Assembly (NCBI RefSeq): GCF_010119935.1
Contig: NZ_CP048209.1
Span: 4,529,001-4,593,000, forward strand
DNA: 64,000 nucleotides
Direction: 5' to 3'
Source of the DNA: Paenibacillus lycopersici
Lineage (GTDB): Bacteria; Bacillota; Bacilli; Paenibacillales; Paenibacillaceae
Each line of letters starts with the position of its first letter. Position 1 is the first letter of the stretch. The notes beneath the pieces are model-generated. The model did not search any database. It had not been told where the DNA came from and saw nothing but the letters and a program-made list of their open reading frames with translations. The position numbers and the translations under genes were made by a program. Positions 38,494-50,035 of this stretch are shown piece after piece.

Positions 38494-39885
38494 TTACAAT
38501 GATCCGCTGGTTGCAAACCAGTCTTTCTGAATGAAGACGGCGTTCATCATGGCGGTCTGCATGGACCATAAGTACGCATCGGAAGGCTTCTTGGCGTATT
38601 CGCCTGCGGCGACGGCGGCCGAATTGACGGCCTGGATCAGCTTCAGCAGCGACGCCTTATTCGTCTTGTCCGTCATTCCCGACTCCAGGCGGGAAGCGGC
38701 TTCCGTCCACTGCTGATGCAGCGTCTGCCAATCGTTATCGCCCGTTCCGGCTTGACCGTTCAGCTTGGCGGATGACATGTCGCCCAGCTTGGCGAGCAGG
38801 CCGGCCGTATCTTCGAAGAACGTCTGCGCGTCGGACGCGGCTCCGCCGTACGTTAGCTTCGTCAGCGCGGGCACATCGACCTGCTTGACATAGACATCCA
38901 TGCCGGTCAGCGACTGCCCGAGCAGATCGGCCGCGGCCCGGTCGGAGGCCATGCCGACGTAGATCCGGTAATCTTGACCGGACGTAAGCGACGCGGCCGC
39001 AAGCCCTTTGTCGCGCAGCTCCGCCGCGGCCGCCGTCAATCCGTCCTGGCTGCTGAATACGCCGTATTGCAGCATATAATAGGACGCCGCGGGCACGCTC
39101 AGCTTGACGGTGCCGGCAGCGCCCGTTCCGGCCGAAGCGCCCGAATTGTTGGCACTGCCGGTGCCGGCGGCATTCGCCGCTTGTCCGCCGGCCGCCGTCT
39201 TCGCGGGATCGGCCGTGCTGCCGACAGCCGGCAGCGATCCGTCGGCGCTGCCCGTCGCGTCCGATGCGCCGCCGCCCGTGAACATCGTCAGCACGAAGTA
39301 GCCGAACAACGCGCCGGTCGCGATCGCGCCCGCTACGGAGGCAAACACTTTGAACCAGGACGGTCCCTGAGCCGGACGCTTGCCGGAACCGGACGGCAAT
39401 GCGCCCGGGAACGCCTGTCTTCCCCGTTCGTTATGGCCATGACCATGTTCGTCATCGGTCTCGATGTGCGGATACATATCGATAACCTGCGGCGATGGCG
39501 TCCGATTGGCATAGGCGCGCGGAGCCGCTTCGAATTCGCCCTCCTCGTCGCCCAGCAGTATCGTCTCGTTCGTCTCCAAGGCCGACAGCCGCTCTTCCGG
39601 CCCATCTATGGGAAAGCGGTCCGCCGCGGCATGTTCGTTCATGCCCGCCTTCGGGCGTTGTTTCGGGATCTGGCCGTCGGCTTCGCGGATGAGCTGCTCC
39701 AATGCCCCGGCGTCATCTTGAAAGTGACTGGTCCATGTGCCGATATCGGACGAGAACTTCAGTTCCTCCTGGAAGTATGGAACGGCATTCGCGCCCGATG
39801 CGCGTCTCGTCTCCTGCCGGGCCGCCTCGATGCGGGCACCGCTCTGTTTATCGAACCGATACGTAATGCGTCCTTTCGTACTCAT
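38494..39885 (-). CDS. SPOR-domain membrane protein at the spoIIB position
   Basis: The 463-aa protein has a cytoplasmic N terminus of about 180 residues, one membrane helix (about 185-205, ASVAGAIATGALFGYFVL), an Ala/Gly/Thr-rich linker, a SPOR domain (about 260-335, YYMLQYGVFSSQDGLTAAAA and DYRIYVGMASDRAAADLL) and a helical C terminus. SPOR domains bind denuded glycan strands at septa. In B. subtilis the SPOR protein SpoIIB, which helps dissolve septal peptidoglycan at engulfment, occupies the same place between folC and maf, so this is its likely positional counterpart. Sequence is too divergent to name it so. The start ATG 39885 follows AAGGAGAG, and a strong sigma-E-like promoter precedes it. 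Confidence 0.75.
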   Translation of the reverse strand: MSTKGRITYRFDKQSGARIEAARQETRRASGANAVPYFQEELKFSSDIGTWTSHFQDDAGALEQLIREADGQIPKQRPKAGMNEHAAADRFPIDGPEERLSALETNETILLGDEEGEFEAAPRAYANRTPSPQVIDMYPHIETDDEHGHGHNERGRQAFPGALPSGSGKRPAQGPSWFKVFASVAGAIATGALFGYFVLTMFTGGGASDATGSADGSLPAVGSTADPAKTAAGGQAANAAGTGSANNSGASAGTGAAGTVKLSVPAASYYMLQYGVFSSQDGLTAAAAELRDKGLAAASLTSGQDYRIYVGMASDRAAADLLGQSLTGMDVYVKQVDVPALTKLTYGGAASDAQTFFEDTAGLLAKLGDMSSAKLNGQAGTGDNDWQTLHQQWTEAASRLESGMTDKTNKASLLKLIQAVNSAAVAAGEYAKKPSDAYLWSMQTAMMNAVFIQKDWFATSGSL

Positions 39886-39918
39886 CGCACTCTCTCCTTG
39901 TCCGCGTACTCTAGTACA

Positions 39919-39947
39919 AGTCTATGAGCGTTTTGAGAGAATTATGA
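39919..39947 (-). promoter_or_regulatory. Sigma-E promoter of the SPOR gene
   Basis: TCATAAT (39941-39947), 14 bp, CATAGACT (39919-39926) on the minus strand: 6 of 7 and 7 of 8 matches to the mother-cell sigma-E consensus, about 35 bp before the start codon. Confidence 0.65.
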
Positions 39948-40015
39948 CCCGTCCCGGCAGGTCGCTAGGACAAACGCGAGCGCCAAGAAGAGACGGCCAG
40001 ACAAGCGGAGACAAC

Positions 40016-40079
40016 AAAAACAGCCAACCTTCCCGCGAGACGAGCTCCGTTGCCGGATCGTCCTTGAGCTGGTTGACTG
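40016..40079 (-). terminator. Terminator of the chemosensory operon
   Basis: On the minus strand CAGTCAACC pairs with GGTTGGCTG (one G-T) around an inner AGCTC/GAGCT stem, followed by TTTTTG, 65 bp after the last gene. Confidence 0.65.
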
Positions 40080-40143
40080 CTTGTCATACCGTATGCTTAT
40101 CCTATTGCTTCCGTAACCGGCTTTCATCCCCGTCCCTGTCTAT

Positions 40144-42333
40144 TCACGCCCATTCGTCGGCATTGACCTCGAACCGGGCGATGAACGCCGGTACTTGCTC
40201 CGCCTCAAGCGGATGGCTGAACCAATACCCTTGCATGACGCCGCACCCTTGCCCGCCGAGGAAGACGAGCTGTTCCATCGTCTCGACGCCTTCGGCGATC
40301 GTCTCCAGATTCAAGCTCGCGGCCATCGATATGATGGCGCCGATGATCGAAGCGTTGGCCGGATGATGGCGGATGCCTTTGACGAACGATTGATCGATCT
40401 TCAATTTATCGATCGGAAACTCTTTCAAATACGCGAGCGAGCTGTAGCCGGTGCCGAAATCGTCCATCGCCACGAGCAGGCCGAGCGACTTCAGGCTATG
40501 CAGCGCGGGCAGCGCCTTCTGGACGTGCATCGTCATGCTCTCGGTGATCTCCAGCACCAAATACTGCGGATCGAGCCCGGTCTCCGCCAGCACCGCCTCG
40601 ATGTTCTCCTTCAGCCGCTGGTCGTAGAACTGCCGGGAAGACAGGTTGACCGCGACCGGCACCCGGAACAGCCCCGCTTCCAGCCATCGCGCGTTCTGGC
40701 GGCAAGCTTCGCGCAAAGCCCACTCGCCGATCATATAAATCAGCTCCGTCTCTTCCGCGACCGGGATGAATTCCGCCGGCGATATGCGTCCGAACTCGGG
40801 GCTTTCCCAGCGGATCAGGCTTTCGAGCCCGATGACGCGGTTCGTGCGGGTATCGATCTGCGGCTGATAGTGCAGCACGAATTCCTTGCGCTCGATCGCC
40901 TTGCGCAGGTTCTGCTCGATCGTAATGCGGCGCTGGATCTGCTCGTGAAACGACGGCTCGAACAGCTGGCAGCGGTTGCCGCCGTCTTCCTTCGCTTTCG
41001 CCATGGCGATGTGCGCGTAGCGAAGCACGTTCTCATGCTCTTGCAGGTCGTCCGGGCAGAGGCAGATGCCGATGCTGGACGGCAGATGGATTTCATGGCC
41101 GTCGATGCGTACCGGATGCCGGAGCGAACGCAAGATTTGAAGTCCGAGCTGTTCCGCGGCCTCGATCGTCATGTCCGGGACGAGGAGCACGAATTCGTCG
41201 TTGCCGGCGCGGAACAGGACGGACGGTTCGCGGGCGAAGCTCTTCAGCCGGCGCGCCATCAGGATCAGCAGCCGGTCCCCGACCTCGTGGCCGAACGTGT
41301 CGTTGACGAGCTTGAATTGATCCAGGCTGATGCACAGCACCGCGAACGGGCTGCGCCTTGCCGCGAATTCGCCCATCACGCCGGGAATTTGCCGCCGGAC
41401 CGGAAGGCCCGTCAGCGAATCGTGGTTCGAGATATAATCGACCTGATCCTTCAGCTGCTGCTGCTCGGTCAAATCGATAACGACGCCGTATACTTCCTCG
41501 ACCCGCCCGTTCTGGATGAGCGGCTGAAGCATGCCTTGGAAGACGGCGCCGCGGCATTGTACCTCGAAGCCGACATTCTCCTCGCCGTTCCAGGCTCTGC
41601 GAATCAAGTCCGACAGCTGGCCCGGGAAGTCGCCGATGAATGCGTCATGGACCCGCCTGCCGGCCATCTCCGTATCGACGAGGCCGAACCGGTTGACGAG
41701 GGTGCCCGAACAAGCGGCGAAATAGAAACGGTCTTCCTCGTCCTTCCCGAGCGAGAACATCAGTCCGTTCAGCTTGTCGATCACCCGGTTCAACGACGCC
41801 GTCACGGCCGCATCCTTGCCGATGCAGTCGATCATGAAGCCGATGAACGAGCGCAGCATCCGGTCGGTGCCGTCGAAGCGCTCCTTCAGCCGCCAGAACA
41901 GCCGCGTTCCGAGCGCCGCCTTGCAGCGCATCAGAAACTCGTCGACCGCCTGCGGCTCGGATGCTTCGCCGAAGAGCTTGTTTTTCGGCACGAAGTCCGC
42001 CGCCCCGAGGGCAAGCGCTTCGAAAGCGATTGCCGTGCCTTCCTCGGTATGCGTGCTCAGAACGATGACGGGCACCGGATGCTCGGCCATGATGCGTTCC
42101 AGCGCCGCGATCCCGTCCATGACGGGCATCTCCACGTCCATCGTCACCAGATCCGGACGCAGCTCGGCGACGCGTTCGATCGCTTCCAGCCCGTTCGCCG
42201 CGGTGCCCGCGACCTCGAATTGCTCGTCTTGCTCCAGAATCGTTTGAATCAAGGTCCGCATGACGGCCGAATCATCCACGACCAGCACCTTCTTGCGCGT
42301 GCCGCGCGGATCGATAATCGGATGCTCAGGCAT
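40144..42333 (-). CDS. Response regulator with CheB-like receiver, PAS, degenerate GGDEF and EAL domains
   Basis: This 729-aa protein is a likely c-di-GMP phosphodiesterase controlled by phosphorylation. The receiver (residues 14-125) closely resembles that of CheB (VLVVDDSAVMR, then VTMDVEMPVMDG with phospho-acceptor Asp66, and ALGAADFVPK). A PAS-like domain spans about 200-290. The GGDEF domain (about 300-455) has AGNDEF at 376-381 in place of GGDEF, so cyclase activity is doubtful. The EAL domain (about 470-725) keeps E504-x-L, N563, E595, D624-D625, K645, E681 and Q701, so hydrolysis of c-di-GMP is expected. It overlaps cheA by 8 bp and is the last gene of the MCP-cheW-cheA operon, so CheA is the obvious phosphodonor. 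Confidence 0.9.
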   Translation of the reverse strand: MPEHPIIDPRGTRKKVLVVDDSAVMRTLIQTILEQDEQFEVAGTAANGLEAIERVAELRPDLVTMDVEMPVMDGIAALERIMAEHPVPVIVLSTHTEEGTAIAFEALALGAADFVPKNKLFGEASEPQAVDEFLMRCKAALGTRLFWRLKERFDGTDRMLRSFIGFMIDCIGKDAAVTASLNRVIDKLNGLMFSLGKDEEDRFYFAACSGTLVNRFGLVDTEMAGRRVHDAFIGDFPGQLSDLIRRAWNGEENVGFEVQCRGAVFQGMLQPLIQNGRVEEVYGVVIDLTEQQQLKDQVDYISNHDSLTGLPVRRQIPGVMGEFAARRSPFAVLCISLDQFKLVNDTFGHEVGDRLLILMARRLKSFAREPSVLFRAGNDEFVLLVPDMTIEAAEQLGLQILRSLRHPVRIDGHEIHLPSSIGICLCPDDLQEHENVLRYAHIAMAKAKEDGGNRCQLFEPSFHEQIQRRITIEQNLRKAIERKEFVLHYQPQIDTRTNRVIGLESLIRWESPEFGRISPAEFIPVAEETELIYMIGEWALREACRQNARWLEAGLFRVPVAVNLSSRQFYDQRLKENIEAVLAETGLDPQYLVLEITESMTMHVQKALPALHSLKSLGLLVAMDDFGTGYSSLAYLKEFPIDKLKIDQSFVKGIRHHPANASIIGAIISMAASLNLETIAEGVETMEQLVFLGGQGCGVMQGYWFSHPLEAEQVPAFIARFEVNADEWA

Positions 42334-44947
42334 AGCCGATGTTAACTCCTTTCAACCGAACGATCGCGTTCATGTTCATCAAGGTTACCAGATGGCCCCC
42401 TTGTTTGCAGATGCCTTGCGAATACGCCGCCGACAAGCCGAATGCCCCTTCCGGCACGGGCTCCACTTCATCCATCGGTACATGGATCACTTCCGTTACC
42501 TGATCCACCAGGATGCCGGTCATGGAGCCGTTCACATTCATAATCATGATGCGCGACAGCTCGTTCAGCCCGGCATCGGGCATATTCAGGCATGCGCGAA
42601 GATCGACGACCGGCATCAGCTCGCCCCGCAGGTCGATCAAGCCGCACACTTCCGGGGGCGGGGAAGCGACGCGGTGCAGCTCGGGCACCTTGATGATCTC
42701 TTTCGTCTCCCGGATATCGAGCGCATACCGCTCGCCGTCGAGTATGAAGACAAGCAGCTTGATAATGCCTGACGAATCCTTGGCGTCGGCCTTGGCCGTG
42801 CGCCATACGTTCGTCCCCGCTTCGCGCATGACGGCGTGAATGTCCAGAATCAAGGCGATGCTGCCGTCGCCGAGCAGCGTCGCGCCGGACAGATACGGGA
42901 CTTGGCCCAAGTACGATCCTAACGGTTTCATAACGATTTCCTGGTTGGCGATGAGCCGGTCGACGAACAGGCAGACCCGCTTGTCGGCCGCGCCGATCAT
43001 CACGGCGTAGCCTTGTCCTTCGCGTGCGGCATTCAGCTTGCGGTGAAGCCGGATCAGCGGCAGAATCTCGCCGCGCACGCAGCAGACTTCCTGCCCGTGC
43101 ACGCGCTGAATGTCGGCATCCGACAAGCGGAACGTCTCGATGACGTTGACGAGCGGCAGCGCCAGCGTATGCTGGCCCAGCTTGACTAACAGCGATTTGG
43201 ATATCGCGAGCGTCAGCGGCAGCTTGATCGTGAAGACCGTTCCTTGGCCGAGCTCGGTATCGATATCGATCAGACCGTTCAGCTTCTCGATGCGGGCGCG
43301 CACGATGTCCATGCCGACGCCGCGGCCGGACAGCTCGGTCACCTGCTCTGCCGTGGACATGCCGGAATGGAAAATCAGCGAGATCAGTTCCTTCTCCGTC
43401 ATATCGGCCGCGGCCTCTTCGGTAATAAACCCTTTCTGGACCGCCTTGCGTTTGATCTTCCGCGGATCGATCCCCCGGCCGTCATCCGAGATCCGGATCA
43501 TGATGGCGTTCTCCCGATGGCTGGCCTGCAGCTTCAGCCGGCCTTTGCGCGGCTTGCCTTTCGATTCCCGTTCATCGGGCGGTTCCAGCCCGTGATCGGC
43601 CGCATTGCGAAGAATATGAATGAGGGGATCGTTGATTTCCTCGATCAGCGTCCGGTCAAGCTCGGTTTCTTTGCCTTCGATAATGAAATCGATCTCCTTG
43701 CCCGCCTGCTGCGACAAGTCCCGCACCAGGCGGGGGAAACGGCTGAACAGGTTCTCGATCGGCAGCATGCGCGTCTTCATCATCCCCGCCTGCAGCTCGG
43801 CGATGATTCGCCCGAGCTGATCCGACACCTCGCTCAGCGCGGCGGCTTCGGGCTCTTGCTTGAAACGGTCGTCGAACCGCTTCTTCAAATCCTGCAGGCG
43901 CGTATTGCCGATGATGAGCTCGCCGACCAGGTTCAGCAGATGCTCCAGCCGGTCGACATCCACGCGCACGGTTTGCTGAACCTGCGCCTGCGGTTTCGCT
44001 TGGCTCGCCTGGACGGGTCTGGAAGCGGGCTCGGCATCGGCTGACGGCTGTTCCGTTCCCTCTGCGGCCGCGCCTTGCAGGACGAGCGGAGCGATCGCGA
44101 CCCGCTTCACTTGCGAGATGCGTTCCAGCCGTTGACGGATTTCGTCTTCCGCGATTCCCGATGCCAGCGCGAACGTCAACGGCGCCTTGACAAGCAGGCC
44201 ATCCGTGTCCCAATCGGCAAGCGGCGGTTGTATCCCGGCCAATTCGCCGGATTCGGAGAGGATGCGATGGACCAGCATCGCCCGCACGCGCGGCATTTCC
44301 GTATCCGGCGCCAATGCCACCTCGACGCGGTAAACGGAAACGCCTTCATCGCGATGCTTCGATATGGCGTTCCATTCCGCGTCCGTCCACGCCGCCGGAG
44401 GCTCGTTGCCGGCATCATTCACGGCTTCGGCCGCCGCGCCGGCTGTGACTGCCGATTCGGCGGCCTGCGCTGCCGATGCTTCGGCATGCGATGCCCATGC
44501 ATCGGGATGCGCTGGCAATGCTTCGGGATGCGCTGCAGCTCGTGCATGACCGGCAGATGCCGAACCTGACAAGCACTGCTCCAACAAGCTGATCAATTCG
44601 TCGTTATGTACTTCTTCCAATTGTCCCTGCCGAAGCCTTGCTTGCTGCTCCTTCAAATAATCGATGCATCGGAACAACAGATTGATCAGGGCGGGCGTGA
44701 CGCTTAACCGATGCTGGCGCAGCGCGTCGAACACGCTTTCCAGATGATGCGTGACATCCTTCAAATAGTGAAGCCCCATCGCCGCCGACGAGCCTTTCAG
44801 CGTGTGGGCGGCGCGGAAAATCGTTTGGATCGTTTCGAGATTCGCGGATTCGCCTTCCAGCTCCAGCACGGAGCGGTCCAGAATTTGCAGCTGTTCCTCG
44901 AGCTCATCCAAGTACACGCCCAAGTACGTCATCATGAACGATTCCAT
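42326..44947 (-). CDS. cheA: Chemotaxis-type histidine kinase CheA with an extra C-terminal CheW domain
   Basis: CheA autophosphorylates under receptor control and passes phosphate to response regulators. In this 873-aa protein the P1 HPt domain has His48 (AAHTLKGSSAAMG), followed by an Ala-rich linker, a P2-like domain (about 210-295), the P3 dimerisation helices (VDVDRLEHLLNLVGELIIG), the P4 ATPase (N box HILRNAADHGLE, G1 DDGRGIDPRK, G2 GRGVGMDIVRA), the P5 CheW-like domain, and then a second CheW-like domain (about 735-865, LLVFILDGERYALDIRETKEII). Standard CheA has only one. The start ATG overlaps the cheW stop by one base (TAATG), and the stop overlaps the response-regulator gene by 8 bp. 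Confidence 0.93.
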   Translation of the reverse strand: MESFMMTYLGVYLDELEEQLQILDRSVLELEGESANLETIQTIFRAAHTLKGSSAAMGLHYLKDVTHHLESVFDALRQHRLSVTPALINLLFRCIDYLKEQQARLRQGQLEEVHNDELISLLEQCLSGSASAGHARAAAHPEALPAHPDAWASHAEASAAQAAESAVTAGAAAEAVNDAGNEPPAAWTDAEWNAISKHRDEGVSVYRVEVALAPDTEMPRVRAMLVHRILSESGELAGIQPPLADWDTDGLLVKAPLTFALASGIAEDEIRQRLERISQVKRVAIAPLVLQGAAAEGTEQPSADAEPASRPVQASQAKPQAQVQQTVRVDVDRLEHLLNLVGELIIGNTRLQDLKKRFDDRFKQEPEAAALSEVSDQLGRIIAELQAGMMKTRMLPIENLFSRFPRLVRDLSQQAGKEIDFIIEGKETELDRTLIEEINDPLIHILRNAADHGLEPPDERESKGKPRKGRLKLQASHRENAIMIRISDDGRGIDPRKIKRKAVQKGFITEEAAADMTEKELISLIFHSGMSTAEQVTELSGRGVGMDIVRARIEKLNGLIDIDTELGQGTVFTIKLPLTLAISKSLLVKLGQHTLALPLVNVIETFRLSDADIQRVHGQEVCCVRGEILPLIRLHRKLNAAREGQGYAVMIGAADKRVCLFVDRLIANQEIVMKPLGSYLGQVPYLSGATLLGDGSIALILDIHAVMREAGTNVWRTAKADAKDSSGIIKLLVFILDGERYALDIRETKEIIKVPELHRVASPPPEVCGLIDLRGELMPVVDLRACLNMPDAGLNELSRIMIMNVNGSMTGILVDQVTEVIHVPMDEVEPVPEGAFGLSAAYSQGICKQGGHLVTLMNMNAIVRLKGVNIGYA

Positions 44948-45369
44948 TAACGTCCTTCGCCTCCCAAGTCTAATACGCGGTTCAAATCAAGCAGGCAAAC
45001 GAGCTCATCGTTCGTGCGGCCGATGCCCGACAGCAGGCTGCGCTCGGCGGCGTCGGCGCCCGAAGGCGGAGGTAAAATCTCGCCGAACGACGACACTTTG
45101 ACGACGCGGTCGACCAGCAGCCCGATGACCTCCGATTCCGTCTTGACGATTACGATGCGCATATCCCCGCTCGATCGCGGGCTCGGCATATAGAATCGCT
45201 CCCGCAAATCGACGACAGGCACGATCAGCCCGCGCAAATTGATGACGCCGCATACGAACGCCCTGGCGTTCGGAATTTCGGTAATGGGCTGCATCCGGAT
45301 AATCTCCTGCGTCTCGGATAACGGCAACGCATACGGCTTCTCGGCAAGTTCGATCACGATATAGTTCAT
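44947..45369 (-). CDS. cheW: Chemotaxis coupling protein CheW
   Basis: CheW links receptor tips to CheA. The 140-aa protein has the two-barrel CheW fold: YIVIELAEKPYALPLSETQEII, then CGVINLRGLIVPVVDLRERF and IGLLVDRVVKVSS. It is 15 bp downstream of the MCP gene and abuts cheA. Confidence 0.93.
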   Translation of the reverse strand: MNYIVIELAEKPYALPLSETQEIIRMQPITEIPNARAFVCGVINLRGLIVPVVDLRERFYMPSPRSSGDMRIVIVKTESEVIGLLVDRVVKVSSFGEILPPPSGADAAERSLLSGIGRTNDELVCLLDLNRVLDLGGEGR

Positions 45370-45384
45370 CGCGGCTCCGCCCTC

Positions 45385-46950
45385 TTACACTTTAAAGACG
45401 GAGACGTTCTGATTAAGCTCGTCCGCCAAGCGCGCGAGCGCCTGAGACGAACTCGCCATCTGCTCGGAGGCTGCCGCCGCTTCCTCGCTGGACGTGGCGA
45501 TCGCTTCGACTGCCGCCATGACATCGCCCGTCTGGGCCGACTGCTCTTCGCTGGCCGCGGCGATCTCCTGGATGCGGGCGGCGGTGTCCGACACCATATG
45601 GACGATGTTCTCGAACGTGCGGCCCGTGCTGGCCGACAGCGACGCGGCTTCCTCGACCGCCTTCACGCTCTGCTCCGTATTGTCCTGCATGCCTTTGATA
45701 ATGGTCGCGATCTGCTTGGTCGCTTCGCCGCTGCGCTCCGCCAGCTTGCGCACCTCGTCGGCGACGACGGCGAACCCGCGACCCTGATCTCCCGCTCTCG
45801 CCGCTTCGATGGCGGCATTCAGCGCGAGCAGATTCGTCTGTTCGGCAATCTCGTTGATGACTTCGATGATCTGCCCGATCTTGTGGGAATCCTGCTCCAG
45901 CAGCTGCATTTGCTGCGAGAGGCGGTCCATGCTGCGAATGGAAGTCTGAATCGCTTCCGCGCCCTTCTCGGCGCCCTGGCGCGTCTCTTCGGAGATGCCC
46001 GCTACCGACGTCGCGTTCGCGGCAACGGTTGACGAGGCGGCCGACATCTCTCTGACCAGCTCGTTGATCGTTTGCGCCGATTCCGCCTGATCCGTGCTTC
46101 CTTTGGCGATTTCCTCCGTCGTGGCCGATATTTGCTCGGCCGCCGCCGCAGCGCTTTGCGCCGAATCGAGCGTTTGACCGATCAGCGTGCGCAAATTGTC
46201 GATCATCGTGCCGAACGCGGCGGCAAGCTCGCCGATTTCGTCGCGGCTCCGAACGGCGGCTTTCTCGCGCAAATCCCCTTTCGAGACGTTGACGGCGACA
46301 TGGACGATTTTGCGGATCGTCCGAACGAGGCTTTCCGAGATGTAGACGGCCAGCGATAGTCCCGCAAGGACGGCGATGATGCTGAATACGATGATGAGCG
46401 TCCGTCCGCCTTGATTGATGTCGCGCGCATGCTCCACTTCCGCCTTGGAGCCGGTATTGTTGAAATCGATCCATTTCTGCAAATCGTTGTTCACCTTCTG
46501 GCTGGAGGCGAGCGCGTCGTCGATCGTCTTCATCCGTTCGCCGGTGGATTGCGTTTCGTTGATCGAAGCGACTTGATCCGTGTAGCTTTTGGCATTCGCC
46601 ACCAGTTCGTCGTAGATCGTGCGCTCCGTCGGCGAAATGATGAGCTGCTCATACTCGTCCAGGTTCTGGTTCATCGTCCGGATCGTATCGTTCAATGCCT
46701 GCTTCGATTCGTTCATCTGCCCGGCATTCTGCTGCAGCGCCGCATCGTATGCGCCGATTTCGATGTTGGCGAAGTTCAATTTGATCTCGTCGATCTTCAG
46801 AATGCTCGGCAGCCAGTTGCCCTGCACGACGGATACGGACGATTGCAGCGCGTTCATTTTGATAATCGAAATAAAGGCGACGGACATAAGCAGCGCAAGA
46901 ATTAACAAGAAGCTGGCCAGCAGCTTCAGGCGCATCGAAATTTTCATCAA
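45385..46950 (-). CDS. Methyl-accepting chemotaxis protein
   Basis: The 521-aa receptor has two membrane helices (about 8-31 and 182-202) around a four-helix-bundle sensor domain of about 150 residues ([20 protein letters not shown]), then a HAMP domain ([20 protein letters not shown]) and the signalling domain with the hairpin tip [40 protein letters not shown] (E-I-x-x-Q-T-N-L core). Ligand unknown. No CheR-docking pentapeptide is seen at the C terminus (ends NVSVFKV) and no cheR or cheB gene is nearby, so methylation may depend on enzymes encoded elsewhere. A 30-bp gap separates it from the upstream 140-aa gene. Confidence 0.93.
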
Positions 46951-46980
46951 CTTTCAGCTCCTAATTCGGTTATGTAATAA

Positions 46981-47403
46981 TCAGTCGTGAGCGGTTTCGC
47001 CGCCGTGCATAGGGATCACGATCGCAATCTCCAGCAGACTCAGGATTTCGCTTCGCACCTGATGCAGATGGCCCATGACCGTATTTTGCAGGCGGTCCAC
47101 CGAGATGGCGGCGTTCAAATACATTTTCTGATTGCCGGAAGCAATCGAAAGCTCGAATCGGGAGTTGCTGCCCGCCACTTCCTCGATCAGCGACGTGTTC
47201 ATGTATTGCTCGGGGAGCTCGATCGAGAACAGAATCTTCGGATGCGCGTCCTCTTGCTCCAACAGCTGGAGCCGTTCCGTATACGGGTAATTTCGCTTGA
47301 TCCATTGATAGGGGTTCCCGCTTCGGTCATCCCGTTCCCATACCGGCTCGAATCTGTTCGTCGACTCGATGAAAGCGTCCCTGTAGTACTCGAGGAGGTT
47401 CAT
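46981..47403 (-). CDS. Uncharacterised 140-aa protein next to the chemoreceptor
   Basis: I do not recognise this protein. It is soluble, without signal or membrane segments. It begins NLLEYYRDAFIESTNRFEPV, has an aromatic/charged N-terminal part (WERDDRSGNPYQWIKRNYPY), then alternating beta-like stretches (KILFSIELPEQYMNT, FELSIASGNQKMYLNAAI) and a C-terminal helix (HQVRSEILSLLEIAIVI). ATG 47403 is preceded by GGGGGG; the frame stays open to 47445. Gene order and the 30-bp gap to the MCP gene make it likely the first gene of the chemosensory operon, perhaps a ligand-binding or adaptor component. Confidence 0.6.
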   Translation of the reverse strand: MNLLEYYRDAFIESTNRFEPVWERDDRSGNPYQWIKRNYPYTERLQLLEQEDAHPKILFSIELPEQYMNTSLIEEVAGSNSRFELSIASGNQKMYLNAAISVDRLQNTVMGHLHQVRSEILSLLEIAIVIPMHGGETAHD

Positions 47404-47542
47404 GCCTTCCCCCCTACCATCTGTCCATAGTCGTCTTGCTTCCATGTACGTTCATGCATAACATCCATCCTTCCGCTGTCCTTGTCGCAGCTTATATCAT
47501 AATGGACAAATGTTTGGAAATTTCCGGTGTCGCACGTTCGAT

Positions 47543-50035
47543 TTAGGTTATTTTGTTGGAAAAGTGTTTGACCGGCGTCCAAAAACAGGACCTTGCGCCC
47601 TGTTTCCACTGCTGAAGCAGCGATTCCAGCTGCTCCTCTTCAATCGGCTTCGTCAGGATGCCGTTCATCCCCGCGGCCAGGCATTGTTCATGCGTCTCGG
47701 CCTGAGCGTCGGCCGTCAGCGCGATGATCGGCAGCAGATCGAAGCGCCGATCGGCTCGGATGGCCGCCGTTGCGGCAAACCCGTCCATGACCGGCATATG
47801 CAGGTCCATGAAGATCAGATCGAATTCCGTCCGCTTCAGCAGCGCCAGCAGTTCGGTTCCGTTCTCCGCGATTGCCACCGTAATTCCGCGGCTCTCCAGC
47901 TGTCCGCGCGAGACGATCTGATTGATCTCGTTATCTTCGGCAATCACCGCCCGGATCGCCCGCGCATCCGCTTCCGGCGCCGGCGCGGCGGGACGATCGC
48001 TTCGAATCATCGGCGGCAAGGCGTTGCGCGCGGCTTCGAACAAGCCTTTGAACACGAGCTTGCTGACCGGCTTGATCAATACATGGTCCATCTCTTGAAG
48101 CAGCGGCGTAACCGCCCGGCTCTGCAGCGGCGTGAGCGCGATCGCTTTCGCCTTCCTGTTCCGCAGCGCCGCGGCCGCTTCCGCCGACCGGAACGGCCCG
48201 TTGTCGACGCCGTCGACGACGACGTACTCGCCTTCGCCGGTCAGAAGCGCATGCCGAAGCTCGGCAGTCGAGGCAAGAAGCCGTACCCGATGGCCAAGTC
48301 CCGTCAACATGCCGGCAATCGCTTCTTCCAGCAGCGGGTGCGACAGATAGAGATGAACCGTCGCGGGCGGCTGCGGTTCGCTGGCGAATTCCCGCCGAGG
48401 CAGCATAAGAGGCAGCGTGAACGAGACGAGTGTGCCTTGACCGGCCTCGCTCCGCAATTCGAGACGGCCCCCCATCGCCTCCGCCAGCAGCTTGCAGATG
48501 GCCAAGCCCAGACCGGAACCGCCGTATTTGCGGCTCGTCGAGCCGTCGCCTTGAAAGAACGGCGAGAACAGCTGGGCCCGATGCTCCTCCGCAATGCCGA
48601 TTCCCGTGTCTTCCACGGAGAAGCGGACAACGGCTTCCTCCGCGCTTCCGGATTCCAGCTCCGCTCGCACGCAGACATGGCCGTTATCCGTGAACTTGAC
48701 CGCATTGGCGATCAAGTTCATCAATATCTGCTGAATTTTCTGCGGATCTCCGATCGTTACGGACGGCAACCGATTATCGGTCCGGATCACCAATTCGATC
48801 GGTTTATTCCCGGCTGCCGAGCTGACGGTGTCCGCGATCCGCTTCATGACCTCTTCCAGCCGGAACTCGGTTTGTTCCACGACGATTTTGCCGGCTTCGA
48901 TCCTAGCGAAGTCAAGCACGTTATTGATCGTTTGCAGCAGCAGCTTGGAAGAGGAATCGATCTTCTCGAGATAATCGCGCTGAACCGGCGTCTGCGCCGT
49001 CTGCTGAAGCAGCGAGGACAGACCGATGATGCCGCCCAGGGGCGTGCGGATCTCATGGCTCATGCGCGCCAGGAATTCGCTTTTCTCCCGATTGGCCCGC
49101 TCCGAATCCATCCGCTTGAAATAATCCGTAATATCGACGCCGCAGCCGATGACATCCTTGACGGAGCCATTGCTCCATTGCGGGCGCATCGTGACATGCA
49201 GGCGCCTGTCATGAACCGTGATTTCATAATGGACGGTTTCTCCGCTCCATGCGCGCTCGCAGCAGAGGGTGAGCATGTACAGCTTGTCCGGCCTGTCCCC
49301 GAAAACGGCTTCCAACGACCGGCCGTTAATATCCGATGGACGCTTGCCCAGCTGCCCCAGCAATTCGCCCTCGGCCATCTCGTAGACGAAGCGGTCGTTG
49401 TGTTTATGCACTTTAAACACGAACCCCGGATGCATTTGCAGCATGTCGACCAGCTCGGCTTCCATTTCTTTGGCCTTCACCCTGTACGATTGCGTCCGAA
49501 GCAAGTATCGCAGCAGAATTGCCCCGAACAGAGCCACGATGCCTTGATAGATAACGTACGCGCCGACATCGCTCAATCGGGTGTAGCCGAGCAGCCAGGA
49601 ACTGACGTAGTAGAACGCTTGAACGAATGCCGTGCCGACCGCCCATTTCTGCCAGAAGCCCTGCAGGCGGGACATGATGACGCCCGTGCCGAGTGCGGCG
49701 ATGAGCGATAGGACGATCAGAGCGGGTTCCGGGGCGCGGTACATCAAGGAACGGGCCGTCAGCGAGAAGACCGAGACGATCACGGCCGCGGCTGGACCGC
49801 CGAAGAAGGAACCGAGCAAGATGGCGGTTCCGCGAAAGTTCAGCGTGACTCCGTTCGCAGCGACTACGCTGCACGTGTTCAATAACGCCGCGAGCAAGCC
49901 ATGCGCGGCGCCGGCGAGCAGCTTGCCGCGCCAGCCCGTATCGAGCCGCGCTTGCCGGCGCTTGACGAAGAACGGCCCGATATAGAGAACGAACATAAGA
50001 ATGATGAATACGTTTAAAATCAAATCCTTGAACAA
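47543..50035 (-). CDS. Membrane hybrid histidine kinase/response regulator (5TM-LYT sensor)
   Basis: The 830-aa protein starts with about six membrane helices resembling the 5TM-5TMR_LYT sensor found in LytS-type kinases ([23 protein letters not shown]). A PAS-like domain (about 195-305) follows, then HisKA with His327 ([11 protein letters not shown]), HATPase with N box [13 protein letters not shown] and G boxes [10 protein letters not shown] and [11 protein letters not shown], a degenerate receiver (about 555-665), and a true receiver ([32 protein letters not shown]). TTG 50035 is seven bases behind GAGAGGCGG. It lies 139 bp upstream of the 140-aa gene in the same direction. It could feed the same output or act alone; the signal is unknown. 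Confidence 0.9.

Follow-up and report, generated by a model that had tools for sequence, protein, structure and literature searches.

A 64,000-nucleotide stretch of the Paenibacillus lycopersici genome (contig NZ_CP048209.1, positions 4,529,001 to 4,593,000; here called the window, with coordinates counted from its first letter) carries an operon that, judging from gene order, domain content and phylogeny, probably encodes a dedicated chemoreceptor array whose CheA kinase controls the hydrolysis of cyclic di-GMP (c-di-GMP) through a receiver derived from CheB. Five co-directional minus-strand genes run from 47403 to 40144. The first, orf154 (46981..47403), matches no Pfam family and has a predicted CesT/YbjN-like fold. 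It is followed by genes for a chemoreceptor of the methyl-accepting chemotaxis protein type (MCP; 45385..46947, within a frame extending to 46950 for which ATG 46947 is the likelier start), a CheW coupling protein (44947..45369), CheA (42326..44947) and an output protein (40144..42333) that joins a CheB-type receiver, a linker, a PAS-like region, a degenerate GGDEF domain and an intact EAL domain, hereafter the REC-EAL protein. The cheW and cheA genes overlap by one base, and cheA and the REC-EAL gene by eight, a compactness that counts in favor of a dedicated array. An earlier sequence-only reading of this DNA had listed the receptor, cheW, cheA and regulator genes with their overlaps, which stands, but had overlooked orf154. 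It had also reported cheR, cheB, cheY and cheD to be missing from the operon, as indeed they are; the genome, a single contig of 6.74 Mb, carries such genes elsewhere.

The receiver of the output protein (Response_reg at amino acids (aa) 16-118 by Pfam; domain taken as aa 14-121, 41971..42294 on the minus strand, with Asp66 as acceptor) had been described as CheB-like, and both a family model and a phylogeny bear this out. The NCBIfam CheB model NF001965 covers aa 15-143 with 150.8 bits and is the top-scoring chemotaxis model for the protein, its score remaining below the whole-protein cut-off of 293 because the methylesterase part is missing. Pfam gives receiver, GGDEF and EAL domains only, with no match to the methylesterase family PF01339. 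For the phylogeny, a quick-search tree was made from 118 receivers (27 hybrid, 20 OmpR, 26 other, 11 single, 19 CheB typed by their methylesterase part, and 15 REC-EAL), taken from 20 stretches of the P. lycopersici genome, which has 113 receiver places in all, and from other loci. All 15 REC-EAL receivers fall with the CheB receivers and one CheB fragment into one group (Shimodaira-Hasegawa-like approximate likelihood-ratio test (SH-aLRT) 98), which joins the CheY-type receivers in a larger group (SH-aLRT 95), apart from the OmpR and hybrid receivers. The resolution of this quick tree extends to the grouping with CheB, and not to the branching of the REC-EAL receivers within it. The protein thus shares its receiver grouping with the CheB methylesterase but lacks the methylesterase domain. 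Residues D20, D21, D66, S93 and K117 are kept in all 29 REC-EAL receivers scored, a thirtieth copy (L163), whose gene is split in two, having been left out of motif scoring. A fold search with a model of the receiver and PAS-like region returned receivers of many kinds, with CheY and CheB tied at the top, and discriminates neither a PAS domain nor a CheB origin.

The effector had been named as PAS-GGDEF-EAL rather than methylesterase. Pfam upholds the GGDEF domain (aa 302-454, 40972..41430) and the EAL domain (aa 474-708, 40210..40914); the PAS domain has no Pfam match in this protein and is kept here as a PAS-like region (aa 190-287, 41473..41766) by predicted structure only, from the order of its elements (mean predicted local distance difference test (pLDDT) 78.5, predicted template modeling score (pTM) 0.49). 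The GGDEF motif is degraded as claimed, reading RAGNDEF, with REPS at the position of the RxxD inhibitory site, and the EAL domain is likewise intact at all eight positions checked, which we take to be the catalytic ones. The same eight positions are preserved in 28 of the 29 scored proteins, the exception being a truncated copy (L158). Degenerate GGDEF motifs occur in 25 of the 29 (GSDEF 15, GGDTF 3, GNDEF 2, GTDEF 2, SSEEF 1, GGDTY 1, GSDEY 1), and RxxD in none. The four intact motifs belong to the cheA-linked copy of P. cremeus (L069) and to unlinked copies in P. koleovorans (L166) and two Cohnella (L048, L049). From these residues, the EAL domain should hydrolyze c-di-GMP, and the degenerate GGDEF domain most likely makes none. 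By analogy, it may act as a regulatory GTP-binding module. A GTP-sensing role is plausible for a GNDEF domain because the GEDEF motif of Caulobacter CC3396, altered at the same position beside an active EAL domain, is reported to bind GTP and to activate its EAL neighbor (PMC4823724). The part of that source used here mentions no chemosensory link for CC3396, and GTP activation of the window protein would follow by analogy only.

Relatives of the output protein occur in other genomes of the family and order. With the receiver and PAS region as query against 394 family genomes (six candidates per genome scored, E 1e-30 or better), 128 genomes matched; in at least 13 of the 394, P. lycopersici among them, the match spans the PAS region, and the remaining matches stop at query position 197 or earlier. 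Most of the 19 CheB receivers in the receiver tree came from loci with these shorter matches. A profile search at the level of the order (392 genomes, some of them shared with the first survey) yielded at least 20 full-length matches, again counting P. lycopersici itself, and a CheA scan of named genomes gave 35 loci, mainly from Paenibacillus and Cohnella. Neighborhoods were counted at 30 REC-EAL loci from two family codes of the order, over ∼10 kb on each side where the contig allowed. Calls were made by BLAST (one query each) or hidden Markov model thresholds rather than by orthology tests, and the identities of the CheB, CheC, CheD and CheR queries were confirmed by Pfam. Intact cheA lies near 21 of the loci and a cheA fragment near one more, with cheW near 21, an MCP gene near 23 and orf154 near 24; cheR, cheB, cheC and cheD were found by BLAST at none of the 30. 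Window-like hybrid kinases (BLAST >280 bits) lie near 19, an OmpR-type regulator 13 and a CheY-like gene six. The gene order described from the window alone is therefore recurrent, to the extent that intact cheA is nearby at 21 of the 30 loci.

Further chemosensory genes lie at several related loci. In P. koleovorans, a CheY-like gene, the intact-GGDEF REC-EAL gene and an MCP gene stand together (L166, 8260-11287), separate from the orf154-MCP-cheW-cheA locus of that species. A Cohnella-type locus has a protoglobin-MCP gene after cheA, by Pfam (L058, 13042-14079), and genes for MCP-like proteins of 336-358 aa are found close to orf154 or cheA in L060, L068, L200, L201, L203 and L204. A pilus cluster upstream of the operon in six relatives was considered and dropped: of ten proteins from L040, nine belong to Pfam families unrelated to pili, such as acetyltransferases, VanZ and LysE, and the only one with no match is orf154.

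The kinase and receptor of the window are set apart from their flagellar counterparts, as the sequence-only reading had proposed. Domain matches in the genome number 5 CheW, 1 CheB, 3 CheR-family, 11 MCP, 8 EAL and 113 receiver. A second che cluster (L007) lies ∼1.7 Mb from the window operon among flagellar genes and comprises, by Pfam, FliM/FliN-type, FHIPEP, CheB, CheA (with one CheW domain), CheC-like, CheD and single-receiver proteins. The window CheA has Hpt, P2, H-kinase_dim, HATPase and two CheW domains by Pfam; its kinase core is 43% identical to that of the flagellar-cluster CheA, from which it is distant in the CheA tree. Pfam finds no receiver in the window CheA, in contrast to WspE, the CheA homolog of the Wsp system, which carries its own. 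The receptor is a transmembrane protein with 4HB_MCP_1 (Pfam, 6.9e-17), HAMP and MCPsignal domains and methylation-type motifs. From its tip motif to its C-terminus it has 151 residues, versus 171-172 in four other receptors of the genome, such that its signaling hairpin is shorter by ∼3 heptads per helix; this comparison covers the window receptor and five of the ten others, the remaining five having no match to the tip pattern. The shorter hairpin fits a separate array and counts in favor of one. A second short-hairpin receptor (L124, genome positions 4741430-4741858) has an open frame of just 186 aa and is perhaps a remnant. CheR-family domains occur at three places in the genome, all outside the window operon, two of them (L106 and L109, genome positions ∼3282500-3286000 and 3518700-3524000) amid several receiver domains; the sole CheB match is at 2849721.

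The array might instead also, or mainly, feed flagellar taxis through CheY and CheB, with the REC-EAL protein serving as a phosphate sink or a modulator of swimming. The window genome does have a flagellar che cluster, and the six CheY-like neighbors counted above, all of family code f6, are 66-71% identical to the single receiver of that cluster. However, the window operon itself has no CheY, and both the distance between the two CheA proteins and the difference in receptor hairpin length argue against this arrangement, which we regard as quite improbable.

Phylogeny further ties the kinase to the output. In a tree of 45 CheA proteins, 17 from genomes with the system form one clade (100/100), comprising 13 genomes with a linked REC-EAL gene, three with an unlinked one, and one Cohnella with orf154 only; with eight family-f6 CheA proteins added, the clade has 25 rows (100/99.9). 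Four linked groups recur in the REC-EAL and CheA trees: the window with G315; six G317-type genomes; f6; and the species baekrokdamisoli, thalictri, cremeus, terricola and cellulosilyticus. The neighbors of f6 differ between the two trees, its CheA placing being weak (84/70), and in the REC-EAL tree, from which the split L163 and truncated L158 were omitted, two of seven other EAL proteins of P. lycopersici fall on the wrong side, on long branches. The receiver grouping with CheB, the conserved receiver and EAL residues, the single CheA clade and the matching tree groups all count for a dedicated array. The unlinked REC-EAL proteins of Cohnella and P. koleovorans cluster together (98/100, with a long-branch warning), unlike their CheA proteins. 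We had considered them as the missing partners of those kinases and dropped the idea because the trees disagree; they may be paralogs or imports.

A larger clade of 27 CheA proteins adds kinases near STAS genes (L064, L067, L070) or CheY-like genes (L072, L073, L085), one from Calidifontibacillus near a stand-alone EAL gene (L076), and three whose neighbors are of no recognized type (L066, L084 and L086, with the neighbors of L066 and L086 lying outside the Pfam screening). For the ten genomes with these neighboring CheA types, none of the output-protein matches listed extends into the PAS region. The regions concerned are 13003-13395 of L064, 12998-15187 of L067 and 13025-13441 of L070, and L067 has a PAS-SpoIIE phosphatase gene as well; it is possible that these CheA relatives provide a chemosensory input to partner switching. 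In Calidifontibacillus, the EAL gene (L076, 14955-15680) follows cheW, cheA and an MCP gene.

Losses in relatives bear on the wiring from both sides. Two genomes, G298 and G300, encode orf154 and then a GGDEF-EAL protein of 421 or 428 aa that is devoid of receiver and PAS regions; the kinase core of the sole CheA found in each shares 48% identity with that of the window CheA. A third, G299, keeps orf154, has a CheA 47% identical to that of the window, and yielded no REC-EAL protein. In G297 and G301, which share a genus code with these three, the dedicated CheA and the receiver are both present. The loss of the receiver in G298 and G300, where the dedicated CheA is absent, versus the presence of both in G297 and G301, counts for control of the output by a dedicated array.

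Other relatives weigh against that interpretation. In five genomes (G517, G478, G519, G509 and G492), orf154 and the REC-EAL gene are grouped with genes for a hybrid kinase and an OmpR-type regulator, with no cheA, cheW or MCP gene there, and the sole CheA found in each is 44-45% identical to the window CheA. These five weaken an exclusive link to CheA. In G500, which lacks cheW, the REC-EAL gene is intact and the cheA next to it is a remnant of 404 aa. The REC-EAL proteins of two Cohnella and P. koleovorans are unlinked to cheA, have an intact GGDEF motif and do not track CheA in the trees, and the linked protein of P. cremeus has an intact GGDEF motif. Finally, a CheA of the clade and orf154 are present in Cohnella cholangitidis (G005) and in G001, which shares its genus code, with no REC-EAL protein among the matches listed.

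These genomes also direct attention to the neighboring hybrid histidine kinase, encoded at 47543..50035 on the minus strand with 5TM-5TMR_LYT, HisKA, HATPase and C-terminal receiver domains. It is a possible further input, which does not imply membership in the operon. This kinase, and not CheA, could be the main phosphate source or regulator of the REC-EAL protein, with CheA as one of several inputs or dispensable. Such a role would agree with the recurrence of window-like hybrid kinases and of the OmpR-type regulator near REC-EAL loci, and with the five genomes that keep both, along with orf154 and the REC-EAL gene, despite having no dedicated CheA. Yet the receiver is of the CheB type, encoded by a gene that overlaps cheA; three of the REC-EAL genes in the five CheA-less genomes are intact and two are broken; and G298 and G300 retained hybrid kinases though the receiver is gone. 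Hybrid kinases also usually need an Hpt step. We therefore consider primary control by the hybrid kinase unlikely. The pattern of loss makes CheA the likeliest, although perhaps not the sole, input, and genomes without the dedicated CheA, some of them also without the receiver, offer natural tests of the wiring. A promoter and terminator scan of 39800-47700 gave fewer sites than did shuffled sequences, and Rfam at gathering thresholds matched nothing in the window, a c-di-GMP riboswitch included.

The first gene of the operon, orf154, encodes 140 aa if translated from ATG 47403, which agrees with its homologs, or 154 aa if translated from ATG 47445. Among 12 members of its family there is no real Pfam match and one chance-level match (E up to 5). 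A predicted structure (pLDDT 83.7, pTM 0.77) runs from one helix through three strands, helices and two strands to a last helix, and a Foldseek search with it places secretion-chaperone folds at the top, with a best E of just 0.006. By VIA-align, the model superimposes on SycT with Z 11.2 and a root-mean-square deviation (rmsd) of 2.8 over 112 residues at 9% identity, and on Escherichia coli YbjN with Z 8.9 and an rmsd of 3.4 over 114 residues at 14% identity. The resemblance to CesT/YbjN-fold proteins is thus one of predicted fold only, with low identity, a weak Foldseek E and no Pfam match. On the basis of this model, orf154 probably serves the output branch as a small partner or chaperone. 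Of the 394 family genomes, 24 have orf154, and at least 12 of those 24 also encode a full-length REC-EAL protein. A general tie between the two was dropped because the other 12 have no full-length REC-EAL protein among the candidates scored; all 12 of these loci were inspected (11 fetched, the twelfth, in G005, being L058). The tie is strong one way only, with orf154 present at 24 of 30 REC-EAL loci. In Cohnella, orf154 also stands beside MCP-like genes.

A partner of this kind could suit a different function, in which the EAL domain is a c-di-GMP-controlled switch, or trigger enzyme, that acts by protein contact, perhaps through orf154, and not by way of the c-di-GMP pool. The frequent degeneracy of the GGDEF motif and the persistence of orf154 beside a GGDEF-EAL gene in the two genomes without the receiver would be compatible with a switch, but preservation of the eight EAL positions in every protein except the truncated one speaks for catalysis and renders the trigger-enzyme role very improbable.

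The sequence-only reading could not name such a wiring in Firmicutes; taken as a claim that the wiring is of no known kind, this is not supported. Chemosensory clusters of the alternative cellular functions (ACF) pathways contain proteins in which a receiver is joined to GGDEF, EAL, PAS or other domains, and the portion of the source used here gives these pathways for Archaea, Chloroflexi, Cyanobacteria and Proteobacteria (PMC3447774); receiver-EAL fusions have thus already been described in other phyla. A review, as far as the part cited extends, assigns the chemosensory pathways that control c-di-GMP to the ACF and type IV pilus classes, and the outputs in its surface-sensing table are synthases (PMC8846402); a second mentions Wsp (PMC10333796). 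In ACF pathways, as in the window system, the che cluster encodes a response regulator of several domains as its output (PMC3447774), and the window REC-PAS-GGDEF-EAL gene overlaps cheA. In contrast, the window system belongs to Paenibacillaceae, and cheR and cheB, members of the minimal six-protein ACF set (PMC8846402), were found by BLAST at none of the 30 loci; the P. lycopersici genome has them elsewhere. By analogy, the window system may work like an ACF- or Wsp-type pathway, a likeness of output architecture. We found no report of a receiver-EAL chemosensory output in Firmicutes in the open-license literature.

The Wsp system of Pseudomonas (WspA, WspE, WspR) shares with the window a 4HB_MCP_1 receptor, a kinase and a receiver-bearing c-di-GMP enzyme as output, in the portion of the review that describes it (PMC8846402). 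However, WspR makes c-di-GMP and is a REC-GGDEF protein, whereas the window output, with GNDEF and an intact EAL domain, is predicted to hydrolyze it; moreover, the window receiver is of the CheB type, and methylation genes are not linked. Pch of Pseudomonas aeruginosa likewise combines PAS and degenerate GGDEF domains with an EAL phosphodiesterase, and needs CheA for its localization and activity. In the part of the source used here, however, Pch has no receiver, works with the flagellar array, and is thought by its authors unlikely to be phosphorylated by CheA (PMC3861689).

We propose that the 4HB receptor, CheW and CheA would form a signaling unit apart from the flagellar array, from which CheA could pass phosphate to Asp66 of the CheB-type receiver, controlling the REC-EAL protein directly. 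Fused to an EAL phosphodiesterase instead of a methylesterase, the receiver may gate its effector by way of the linker and the PAS-like region. Phosphorylation would most likely activate hydrolysis and lower c-di-GMP, the sign being a guess. As in CC3396, GTP binding may give the degenerate GGDEF domain a regulatory role; orf154 would be the probable small partner or chaperone; and CheR and CheB, whose genes lie at other places in the genome, could methylate the receptor. The fullest form of this proposal, that an array of Paenibacillaceae fused a CheB receiver with a c-di-GMP phosphodiesterase and thereby lets its activity set breakdown, with a new CesT/YbjN-like partner and probably a recurrent hybrid kinase, is one that we hold tentatively, at somewhat short of an even chance.

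If the proposal is true, Gram-positive bacteria would gain a route, open to direct testing, by which a receptor array acts on c-di-GMP through hydrolysis, in contrast to the synthesis of the best-studied case, Wsp. A CheB receiver would have moved from adaptation to second-messenger output, and the route would add a conserved, uncharacterized protein, orf154.

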